In this document: piece after piece, positions 20,108 through 37,880 of the stretch
How the letters are laid out: each line of letters opens with the position of its first letter
How positions within the stretch are numbered: position 1 is the first letter of the stretch
NCBI RefSeq assembly: GCF_900499005.1
Contig: NZ_LS991317.1
Coordinates: forward strand, 4,101-53,321
Length of the DNA: 49,221 nt
Source of the DNA: Actinomyces culturomici
GTDB lineage: Bacteria > Actinomycetota > Actinomycetes > Actinomycetales > Actinomycetaceae
Reading direction: 5' to 3'
Program-made: the position numbers and the translations under genes
Notes under the pieces: generated by a model
The model's database searches: none
What the model was told of the DNA's origin: nothing
Seen by the model: the letters and a program-made list of their open reading frames with translations, nothing else

Positions 20108-20173
20108 CGAGAGCATTACTTTCGCGCGCCGAGAGCATCACCTTGCTCCGTCGAGGGGATGCGGGCGCGTGAC
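20108..20173 (+). repeat. 22-bp phased array, two units plus a terminal unit
   Basis: CGAGAGCATTACTTT starts at 20108, CGAGAGCATCACCTT at 20130 and the variant CGAGGGGAT at 20152, each exactly 22 bases apart. The same order, ending in CGAGGGGAT, recurs at 30126-30182 and 37843-37880. Single CGAGAGCATYAC copies also lie at 20217 and 20364. Confidence 0.75.
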
Positions 20174-20256
20174 CTCGCAGCCGACGATGCATGACTTCGC
20201 CGCCCCTTCTTCCCGCCGAGAGCATCACGTTGACGCGGCGATGTGAGAACTCGGCA

Positions 20257-20304
20257 CATCGTGGACACCGAAACTCACAACTTCGTGGACACCGAATCTC
20301 ACGA
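20257..20304 (+). repeat. 24-bp tandem duplication
   Basis: Two adjacent 24-base copies share TTCGTGGACACCGAA and CTCAC with four differences. No open frame of merit covers them. They lie among the CGAGAGCAT motifs upstream of the Nudix gene. Confidence 0.6.
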
Positions 20305-20340
20305 CTTCGCCGCCCGAGTCGCACGGCTGCGTGGGGCGTG

Positions 20341-20361: not shown

Positions 20362-20408
20362 GCCGAGAGCATTACCGACTCTTCGCAGTTAGGTTGCCGA
20401 CGCCCCAC

Positions 20409-20727
20409 ATGACCTGCATCGCCGTCTCGGCGTGGTTGGTGGGTGGGGAGGGGCGTCGAATGTGCGATCCAAGTCGCCCGGCCTCCGGAATCGGCGGCCC
20501 GCATGACCTGCATCGCCGTCTCGGCGTGGTTGGTGGGTGGGGAGGGGCGTCGAATGTGCGATCCAAGTCGCCCCGCCTCCGGAATCGGCGGCCCGCATGA
20601 CCTGCATCGCCGTCTCGGCGCGCGCCCGTGGGCGGGAGGGGCGTCGAATGTGCGATCCAAGTCGCCCCGCGCCCGGAATCGGCGGCCCGCACAACCTGCA
20701 TCGCCGCCTCGGCGCGCGCCCGTGGGC
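20409..20727. repeat. 94-bp tandem repeat, about 3.4 copies
   Basis: Copies begin at 20409, 20503, 20597 and 20691 (exact 94-base period). The first two are almost identical; the third and the partial fourth share a GCGCGCCCGTGGGC variant. Because 94 is not a multiple of three, the repeat shifts frame each time, and it is not coding. It sits in the 987-base gene-free gap (20059-21045), whose remainder contains the 22-bp units and a degenerate GTTTGGCG-family copy near 20745-20836. Confidence 0.85.
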
Positions 20728-29557: not shown

Positions 29558-30010
29558 ATGGACAACGTCCCCCCGAACTCGGACTACTCGTCGAATTCGG
29601 TCGATTTCGGCCACGGCGTCGCGATGGGCGGCGACGGCACCGAGATCGCCTGGATCGTCCTCGCGGCCGCGGCGCTCATCGCCGCGATCGTCCTCGTGGT
29701 CTGGATCGTCAAGCGCGTCCTGCCGGTCGCGCGCAATCCGCTCACCGTCCTCGACATGCGCCTCGCGTCCGGCGAGATCGACGAGCAGACCTACGCCCGC
29801 ACCCGCGCCGCCCTCATGGCCGGCCAGCCGGGCGCGGTCGCTCAGGCCCCGGCGGCCCAGGCATCGGTCGCCCAGCCGCCCGTCGCGACTCCCGCGCCCG
29901 CCGGCTTCCCGCAGCAGGCGGGATCCGCCCCCACCGCCGTCCTCCCGACGTACGAGGCCGGGGCGCAGGCGCCGACCGAGTCGGCCACCCAGGAGTCGCA
30001 GAACCAGTGA
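29558..30010 (+). CDS. SHOCT-domain membrane protein
   Basis: The 150-residue product has one membrane helix at about residues 30-52 and the short SHOCT motif NPLTVLDMRLASGEIDEQTYARTRAAL (about 68-94), followed by an Ala/Pro/Gln-rich disordered tail. SHOCT segments are common C-terminal modules in small actinobacterial membrane proteins and their role is unknown, perhaps oligomerisation. AAAGGAG precedes the ATG. Monocistronic, ended by a strong stem-loop. Confidence 0.8.
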   Translation: MDNVPPNSDYSSNSVDFGHGVAMGGDGTEIAWIVLAAAALIAAIVLVVWIVKRVLPVARNPLTVLDMRLASGEIDEQTYARTRAALMAGQPGAVAQAPAAQASVAQPPVATPAPAGFPQQAGSAPTAVLPTYEAGAQAPTESATQESQNQ

Positions 30011-30016
30011 AGCCCC

Positions 30017-30051
30017 CCGGCGCCCCGACTCGTGAGGATCGGGGCGCCGGG
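30017..30051 (+). terminator. Terminator after the SHOCT gene
   Basis: A perfect 13-bp stem (CCCGGCGCCCCGA arm) with a nine-base loop lies seven bases after the stop. No clear U-tract. Confidence 0.75.
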
Positions 30052-30058
30052 CGCTCGG

Positions 30059-30182
30059 GTAATGCTCTCGGCGGCCCAACGTGATGCTCTCGGCGGCCCA
30101 ACGTGATGCTCTCGGCGAGTCCCGCCGAGAGCATCACCTTTCCTCGTCGAGAGCATTACCTTCGCGCGTCGAGGGGATCTCC
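30059..30182. repeat. 22-bp phased array with internal inversion, six units
   Basis: Three units on the minus strand (GTRATGCTCTCGGCG starting at 30059, 30081 and 30103) meet three on the plus strand (CGAGAGCATYACC at 30126 and 30148, then the terminal CGAGGGGATCTCC at 30170). Spacing within each half is exactly 22. The centre forms a long hairpin. It lies between convergent SHOCT and TetR genes. Confidence 0.8.
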
Positions 30183-30197
30183 GCTCCCCTTCAGCGG

Positions 30198-30222
30198 GCG
30201 CTCCGCCCCGTCCTCGTCGATC
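30198..30222 (-). repeat. Dispersed motif copy near the TetR stop
   Basis: Reads CGATCGACGAGGACGGGGCG on the minus strand, 36 bases 3' of the TetR gene, and follows the 22-bp array directly. Confidence 0.55.
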
Positions 30223-30257
30223 GTTTCCAGGAGCGGAAAGAGCACGTCGTGGGAGAG

Positions 30258-30884
30258 TCAGGCGTCCCCGGACTCCCCGCGCCCGAGCGCGAGGTAGCGG
30301 TCGAGCGTCGGGCCGACGAGCCGGGCGAGCTCATCGGGATCGGCGTCGGCGATGGGGCCGAGGGCGACGATCTTCCTGAGGAAGACGAGACCGAGGATCT
30401 GGGAGCCGAAGAGTGGCAGACCCAGCCCCGCGACACCCGCCTCCCTGAGGTCGCCGCCCGCGCGGGCGATGAGCCCGCCGATCGCGGATACGACGACCTC
30501 GCGCGTCTCCTCATCGGCTCCGACCGCGCGCATGAGTGAGATGAGCGCGGGGCCTCTCCTGGGGTCCTCGGCGATCCCGAGGACCGCGCGGACGTACTCC
30601 TCGCCGACGGAGCGCCCCTCGCTCGACGCGCTGAGGAGCATCTCCGGGAGGCGCGACTCCTCGAAGACCCGCGTCATCGCCTCGCGCGCGAGGCCCGCCT
30701 TCGAGCCGAAGTAGTAGTGGATGAGCCGGGGGGCGACATCCGCCCTCTCGGCGATGCGCCGCACCGTCGCGGCGCGGAATCCCCGCTCGGCGAACTCCTC
30801 GAGCGCGGCGTCGAGGATCGCGCCGCGCAGATCCTCCGCATCGGCGCGGGGTCCGCGCTTCGACGCGCCGGACGGTTCGGTCAT
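30258..30884 (-). CDS. TetR-family transcriptional regulator
   Basis: The 208-residue protein has an N-terminal TetR helix-turn-helix (about 26-62, ending DVAPRLIHYYFGSKAGL, the family signature) and a TetR_C ligand-binding helical domain. It is divergent from the ABC permease gene with an 18-base palindrome between, so it most likely represses the ABC efflux operon and itself. I chose the ATG at 30884 with AGGAGGAA before it; an upstream in-frame start (30914) lacks a site. Confidence 0.92.
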   Translation of the reverse strand: MTEPSGASKRGPRADAEDLRGAILDAALEEFAERGFRAATVRRIAERADVAPRLIHYYFGSKAGLAREAMTRVFEESRLPEMLLSASSEGRSVGEEYVRAVLGIAEDPRRGPALISLMRAVGADEETREVVVSAIGGLIARAGGDLREAGVAGLGLPLFGSQILGLVFLRKIVALGPIADADPDELARLVGPTLDRYLALGRGESGDA

Positions 30885-30924
30885 CGTTCCTCCTCGACTC
30901 GGGTCGTTCCCCATGCTATCTTCA

Positions 30925-35405: not shown

Positions 35406-35487
35406 CGAGAGCATCACCTTGCGGCGTCGAGAGCATCACGTTCGCGCATCGAGAGCATCACCTTTCCCCCGCCGACGGCATTACCGG
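35406..35487 (+). repeat. 22-bp phased array, three units plus a degenerate one
   Basis: CGAGAGCATCACSTT starts at 35406, 35428 and 35450 (22 bases apart); a degenerate CGACGGCATTACC follows at 35473. It lies upstream of msrB and 3' of mscS, in a 210-base gap with nothing else I can support. Confidence 0.8.
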
Positions 35488-37696: not shown

Positions 37697-37772
37697 GGCT
37701 CTGTAGCTCAGTTGGTAGAGCGTTCGACTGAAAATCGAAAGGTCACCGGATCGACGCCGGTCGGAGCCACCA
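37697..37772 (+). tRNA. tRNA-Phe (anticodon GAA)
   Basis: Acceptor GGCTCTG with CGGAGCC, anticodon loop CTGAAAA (GAA), discriminator A, encoded CCA. It is last of the Glu-Asp-Phe cluster, ahead of a strong terminator. Confidence 0.95.
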
Positions 37773-37842: not shown

Positions 37843-37880
37843 CGAGAGCATCACCTTCGGCCATCGAGGGGATCTCCGAC
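37843..37880 (+). repeat. 22-bp phased array, one unit plus a terminal unit
   Basis: CGAGAGCATCACCTT starts at 37843 and CGAGGGGATCTCC at 37865 (22 bases). Same two-part structure as 20130-20173 and 30148-30182. Confidence 0.75.

Follow-up and report, generated by a model that had tools for sequence, protein, structure and literature searches.

Why do short repeats lie between genes of Actinomyces culturomici at a step of exactly 22 bases, and what reads this step? The locus that raises the question lies near 30 kb of the window, by which we mean the whole stretch of 49,221 nucleotides analysed here. The preliminary description of this DNA took such phased arrays either for iteron-like binding sites of a chromosome-organising or regulatory protein, or for a structured RNA or terminator family.

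Arrays in the window

The 22-base steps on both strands and all the window coordinates in the preliminary description were borne out on re-check (Table 1). For the minus array, the three units 22 bases apart stood, but the start given as 30059 is the first base of the 12-base core, and the array covers 30056-30114. The same closing variant, CGAGGGGAT, ends three of the arrays (at 20152, 30170 and 37865), as had been noted. The CGACGG variant that follows the 35-kb array stands 23 bases beyond the unit at 35450. With up to three mismatches allowed, the window holds 16 motif matches, against a mean of 1.59 and a largest count of 7 in 100 shuffles; three of the 16 (1618, 7441 and 37896, with 2-3 mismatches) resemble chance. 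A chance origin of the window arrays was ruled out by these shuffles together with the genome-wide copies, counted against a reversed-pattern control.

Table 1. Motif units and arrays located in the window
Feature	Position	Strand	Basis
Array: two units (20108, 20130) + closing unit CGAGGGGATGCGG (20152)	20108..20164	+	motif match
Lone unit	20217..20231	+	motif match
Lone unit, then another recurrent module (CTCTTCGCAGTT...)	20364..20378	+	motif match
Three-unit array, 22-bp step, faces 30126 array	30056..30114	-	motif match
Array: two units (30126, 30148) + closing unit CGAGGGGATCTCC (30170-30182)	30126..30182	+	motif match
Array: three units (35406, 35428, 35450) + CGACGGCATTACC variant at 35473	35406..35485	+	motif match
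Minimal array: one unit + closing unit CGAGGGGATCTCC (37865-37877)	37843..37877	+	motif match

No replication initiator gene adjoins the window arrays, and replication iterons were therefore ruled out for them. The 20-kb array is flanked by a NUDIX gene (NUDIX/histidine phosphatase) and a DUF4342 gene, the 30-kb locus by a gene whose SHOCT match is sub-threshold and a convergent TetR gene, and the 35-kb array by a SelR-domain gene and an MscS-like gene; the minimal array stands after a tRNA-Phe gene (37697-37772) and before a chromate transporter gene. Genes were called with a simple gene caller, whose gene at window 30084-30539 was replaced by hand with the TetR gene at 30258-30914.

Other repeats occur close to these arrays. 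A 24-bp tandem repeat at window 20259-20309 (TCGTGGACACCGAAACTCACAACT) has a core reminiscent of the array unit, and a 94-bp tandem repeat (20404-20714, 3.3 copies) shares its long intergenic stretch with an array; copies resembling this 94-bp repeat are present at another locus of this genome (L079, C17:221300-224300). After tRNA-Phe in genome G145 (L190), the position that the minimal array holds in the window is taken by a different tandem repeat containing CCGAAAACATAATCAGGG, again reminiscent of the unit core.

Unit and array anatomy

The preference for a 22-base spacing, on which the preliminary description had staked its reading, is present across the genome. The exact 12-mer CGAGAGCATYAC occurs 175 times (98 + 77) in the 2.56-Mb genome and its reversed-pattern control 0 times. 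On C18, the 624,529-base contig that carries the window, 24 same-strand spacings among those up to 150 bp (at most two mismatches in the 12-mer) measure 22 bp and 10 measure 23 bp. A further 11 fall at 44-46 bp, 2 are of 67 bp, and each of 11 other distances occurs once. In 166 unique units from the stretches examined, C, G and A stand at +22, +23 and +24 in 95%, 86% and 85%, indicating that nearly every unit is followed by another in-phase unit or by a closing unit. Across the same units, the four positions 15-18 are nearly free and the rest is conserved.

An array is polar: a pyrimidine-rich lead comes first, then one to three 22-bp units (CGARAGCATYACSTTNNNNCGY), and in most cases a closing unit ends it. 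By eye, the first unit mostly reads CGAGAGC and later, optional units often read CGAAAGC; downstream of the closing unit, CTCC follows in 27 of 67 elements and GCGG in 13. Counted by first unit, the 95 arrays comprise 35 two-unit closed, 27 one-unit closed, 5 running into an insertion sequence (IS), 10 three-unit arrays whose short context, as examined, shows no closing unit, and 17 + 1 in which no closing unit was recognised. Head-to-head pairs occur at four loci with a step of 22-23 bp, namely the 30-kb locus of the window and three places on C17 (193055/193078, 207369/207392 and 617487/617509).

Such an anatomy could belong to iteron-like sites of a host chromosome-organising or regulatory protein, in which case an IS would exploit a putative protein-marked site. 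The 22-bp phase, the tight unit with its four nearly free bases, and the head-to-head pairs that likewise keep 22-23 bp all speak for this explanation, which is weighed below against the placement of the arrays.

Distribution among genomes

With a looser pattern, phased pairs number 71 in this genome (G000) and 38 in its relative G150, with a control of 0, and they are absent from the other 33 of 35 genus genomes; one of the 38 pairs is perhaps double-counted, as two contig ends of G150 share one stretch (C1:8680 and C1:2608958). The strict two-unit pattern matches 2 of 213 family genomes (33 matches in G000, 1 in G150), and the looser phased pattern 1 of 396 genomes sampled from the order, a sample that did not include G150. 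A wider contig collection, in which the genome itself and its near kin were perhaps left out, gave no match to the strict pattern. The single 12-mer has 13 copies in G150 and 0-7 in the other genus genomes.

G150 is apparently the closest relative among the genomes searched, being the best match for one window stretch and ranking second in score for the other. AGGTC and AAGTC variants occur in its arrays, in which the 22-bp step and the closing unit are preserved. In 60-100 kb sampled from each of five other genus members, the phased family was not seen; tandems of 22-23 bp with unrelated sequence numbered 4 in G145, 1 in G171, 1 in G152 and 0 in G169. The literature searched, mostly papers outside subscription, holds no description of the unit or of an IS30 element whose insertions are restricted to phased direct arrays.

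Further repeats came to light in these genomes. Two of the most frequent 12-mers in the C18 and G150 stretches, CGCCCTCGTCGA and GCCCCGCCCTCG, lie near some arrays and possibly form a second intergenic motif family. In G150 (L032, C1:2400878-2403911), a 22-bp array has beside it another tandem array, whose unit is 28 bp long (CCGGCAATCACCGCCAAACCAGCCAACT). In stretches of G146 (L251-L254), repeats of the CTCACGCGGGGAAAAC type number about 120 and probably form a large CRISPR array.

An IS30-family insertion sequence in the arrays

The insertion sequence found in the arrays is 1.25 kb long, has the ends GGCGGTTTCAGGYGGTGAGTGCAAC and codes for a 412-residue transposase, which scores 252.7 bits against NF033563 (cut-off 80) and has an integrase core domain, as expected of the IS30 type. 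Ten full copies are 98-100% identical to each other, and the evidence comes from one genome and near-identical copies. The 20 ends of these copies and five lone ends, 25 in all, were recognised by a pattern that allowed two mismatches; all matches were exact, and ends with altered sequence would escape it. At 25 of 25 ends, an array unit adjoins at one identical base, AGCAT^. The recognised ends of this IS were thus found in arrays only. As AGCAT stands on one side of the IS and CAT on the other, the 3-bp CAT is duplicated.

Thirteen ends show the upstream side, and 12 of them have a full unit at -22, while the remaining one abuts an N. Twelve ends show the downstream side: a closing unit stands at +22 in nine, and one has a unit and then a closing unit; in another, a one-base variant unit is followed by a one-base variant closing unit (by eye), and the last one, L292 near a contig end, has half a unit and nothing recognisable at +22. 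None of the 12 readable insertions of the IS is in a first unit. Among the 166 intact units, 71 are non-first in their array, and on that basis such an outcome would arise by chance about 4 times in 100,000 (rough arithmetic). That the 27 free arrays of one unit plus closing unit are never hit is not a valid argument to the same end, because a hit would break the sole unit and hide the array.

Given that the readable insertions lie in a unit with another unit upstream, the transposase most likely recognises two neighbouring units. At the readable insertions, the IS has entered after the AGCAT of a unit that is preceded by another unit and has duplicated CAT; the transposase would contact both units, which the 22-bp phase, equal to two helical turns, would set on one face of the DNA. 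The earlier proposal that a DNA-binding protein reads the 22-base phase has thereby gained indirect support, as all readable IS insertions have a unit one phase upstream.

Relatives of the transposase share at most 51% identity, and 45% for the best-scoring one, among the best 80 of 142 matches. By eye, no common flank repeat was seen around related IS30 elements in G168 (3 of 3 copies, 45% identity), in Pseudonocardia kunmingensis (5 of 5 copies examined) or in Peptoniphilus asaccharolyticus (15 copies among many); in the last species, the flanks are T-rich and A-rich, indicating some target preference of its own. The IS itself had no match in G150 at E <= 1e-60. At one G150 locus (L217), a short IS-end-like stretch lies between array halves with the same CAT (one case, by eye); if this stretch is an IS relic, the link between IS and arrays would be older than the split of both species.

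Two of the lone IS30 ends, C18:222612 and C18:416674, carry one an upstream and the other a downstream array half, and these halves look as if parted by rearrangement or by an assembly join.

Placement relative to genes and turnover of positions

The phased family is real and mostly intergenic, as first described: 63 of 69 units on C18 lie outside called genes, with both orientations represented, and a coding repeat was rejected for C18 on this count. The six units inside called genes may be errors of the simple gene caller, and some 12-mer matches on C17 that look coding (L011, L013) are probably due to chance. On C18, arrays are present in 12 of the 58 convergent gaps, in 16 of the 156 tandem ones and in 5 of the 67 divergent ones. 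The lean towards convergent gaps (12/58 vs 21/223, Fisher p = 0.023, uncorrected) would be expected of any tolerated insert. Array orientation in tandem gaps is 9 sense and 7 antisense, and the 38 intergenic clusters that have a neighbour include 24 with a sense and 14 with an antisense upstream gene; a sense 3'-UTR element is, by these counts, not a rule. Array-bearing gaps on C18 number 0 to 7 per 50 kb, and a gyrB motif at C18:321826 suggests that the origin is nearby.

For the comparison of positions, C18 genes were matched to 800 kb of G150 (287 matches above 50% identity, median 79%), which gave 170 syntenic gaps that measure 60 bp or more in either genome, some of them skipping a gene. 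Arrays were found in 17 gaps of this genome only, in 5 of G150 only and in 0 of both. Among the five gaps with an array in G150 only, two depend on one motif match each, and one of these two (G150 C1 near 109 kb) resembles chance coding sequence. Few gaps being occupied, independent placement would itself lead us to expect about 0.5 shared gaps, and the flanks are too diverged for exact array junctions. Strong conservation of the array sites between both species is excluded by this comparison, which indicates that the arrays have moved or turned over after the split.

That none of the 22 occupied gaps is common to both species argues against a conserved control of neighbouring genes. Accordingly, the initial idea of conserved regulatory or chromosome-organising sites lost ground here, as it did on the mixed orientation to genes and on the lack of phased pairs in the other 33 genus genomes. 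The same three observations weigh against the sites of a host protein, in spite of the phase and the tight unit, and we consider that explanation unlikely.

A possible origin from mobile cassettes

The arrays could also be ends or products of mobile cassettes; a segment that moves would then be framed by inverted arrays, and lone arrays would be remnants. At three C17 sites (L410, L411 and L412, near 687, 736 and 760 kb), homologous pieces carry a gene pair, lipoprotein-like and PKD-like by ORF reading, with inward-facing arrays on both sides; one of these copies is inverted and carries the IS30 element. Some edges of the homology are only a few bases away from an array's outer edge. However, the homology extends 28-36 bp beyond the outermost unit on two sides, many arrays are solitary with unrelated flanks, and we found no transposase whose true ends are formed by bracketing arrays; IS30 and IS110 elements lie in or beside arrays. 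On balance, a cassette origin seems quite unlikely.

At locus L079, ORF 1024-2322 is an IS110-family transposase gene with a plus array on one side and a minus array on the other, and it also has a below-cut-off match to a TIGR-Tas endonuclease model.

Folding of the arrays

On the one hand, some observations would suit a structured RNA or a transcription terminator. Among 60 elements that end in a closing unit, the sense strand has a slight folding advantage over shuffles (mean z -1.30; antisense -0.48), and single loci fold well, such as the 20-kb (z -3.51) and 37.8-kb (z -1.95) loci of the window. The closing GAGGGG pairs with an upstream tract in 35 of 60 single-sequence folds, and CCCCTC stands upstream of 24 of 95 first units, compared with 10.9 in shuffles (largest 20, 500 shuffles).

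On the other hand, the 30-kb plus array (z -0.85) and the 35-kb array (z -0.22) fold poorly, and the consensus folds are weak, at -1.82 kcal/mol for 33 two-unit elements and -4.21 for 26 one-unit elements, and their sense-strand covariation terms are 0.00 and 0.14. Pairing between matched flanks is no stronger than between mismatched ones, either here (-23.89 vs -24.22, 67 elements) or in G150 (-21.08 vs -21.84, 13 elements). The Rfam search of the window matched four tRNAs only, a terminator-like site was absent from the stretch searched at 29900-30400, and antisense placement is common. We therefore regard an RNA or terminator function, which had been offered as an alternative, as highly improbable. 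The hairpin described at the 30-kb locus is real (z -6.05 as DNA), but it arises because two arrays face each other, and we see no support for RNA structure as a trait of the family. The terminal inverted repeat CCCCTC/GAGGGG stays a weak lead, being enriched but without element-specific flank pairing.

Comparison with known repeat systems

Mycobacterial MIRU-type repeats are, like the arrays here, polar direct tandem units between genes, with units several times longer, and we know of no IS link for them. In the broad sense, the arrays are REP-like: they are high in copy number, extragenic by the C18 count and not conserved in position. They also resemble IS-targeted repeats, as all recognised IS copies sit at one fixed repeat position (25/25 ends). 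None of the 8 genomes searched for the REP-associated Y1 tyrosine transposase (PF01797), G000 and G150 among them, gave a match, with the search control positive in 5 of 14.

The IS-targeted REPs surveyed by Tobes and Pareja (2006, PMC1525189) are likewise intergenic repeats that house all copies of certain IS, for example 7/7 for ISPpu9 and ISPpu10 and 10/10 for ISRm22, and the targeting IS named in that survey belong to the IS3, IS110, IS4, IS256 and IS5 families. The sole entry of its REP table that we tie to IS30 is IS1655 (2/13 and 2/6; family from PMC3898611). REPs as described there are palindromic, whereas the arrays here are non-palindromic and direct with a 22-bp phase. Similarity to REPIN/RAYT systems lies in a short motif that spreads as a higher-order extragenic unit with a fixed internal arrangement (PMC3116915). 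According to the same source, REPINs are inverted doublets, hairpin-forming and RAYT-linked; in contrast, the units here are direct and polar, and their consensus folds are weak. Head-to-head pairs are present at four loci. Judged by these features, the present family is a case that works like an IS-targeted REP but fails as one on palindromy and on the RAYT.

With the IS30 of E. coli, the element shares the family and a marked target preference, but E. coli IS30 is described as using nearly palindromic hot spots or its own ends with 2-bp duplications (PMC9333248). The element here has a non-palindromic phased array as target and a 3-bp duplication, and thus does not use hot spots of the classical kind. 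Neisserial dRS3/NIME repeats are also intergenic arrays that serve as integration sites of a mobile element, the prophage Nf1; the dRS3 given there is an inverted repeat, ATTCCC(N8)GGGAAT, used by a phage, unlike the arrays here (PMC3898611).

Discussion

As the recognised IS ends all lie within arrays, the arrays resemble a spreading landing-strip repeat, not a known regulatory switch. Our preferred reading, to which we assign a probability of about 0.62, is a dispersed, REP-like, non-palindromic intergenic repeat family that is the target of an IS30-family element and probably neutral or selfish for the host. Insertion in the arrays would keep the IS out of genes, at a harmless site. Against this reading stand the 18 of 95 arrays without a recognised closing unit and the L292 end, which abuts half a unit only; neither a donor element nor a target duplication of an array itself was found, and a host protein could equally maintain the strict grammar of the arrays.

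The arrays and the IS30-type transposase might go further and form one co-evolved system, with paired-unit recognition, with the arrays as the sole target, and with arrays or bracketed cassettes moved in trans. We think such a system rather improbable. If true, the arrays would be miniature elements that replicate as a phased direct array and not as an inverted-repeat element.

In summary, the dispersed repeat family targeted by the IS30-family element presents a case in which the helical phase between direct repeats apparently guides a transposase to its target, seen from 25 natural insertion ends. Our study bears on the spread of short bacterial repeats without a RAYT and on how insertion sequences find safe sites. 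Additionally, a phased array together with its dedicated IS might act as a defined integration site in high-GC actinobacteria.
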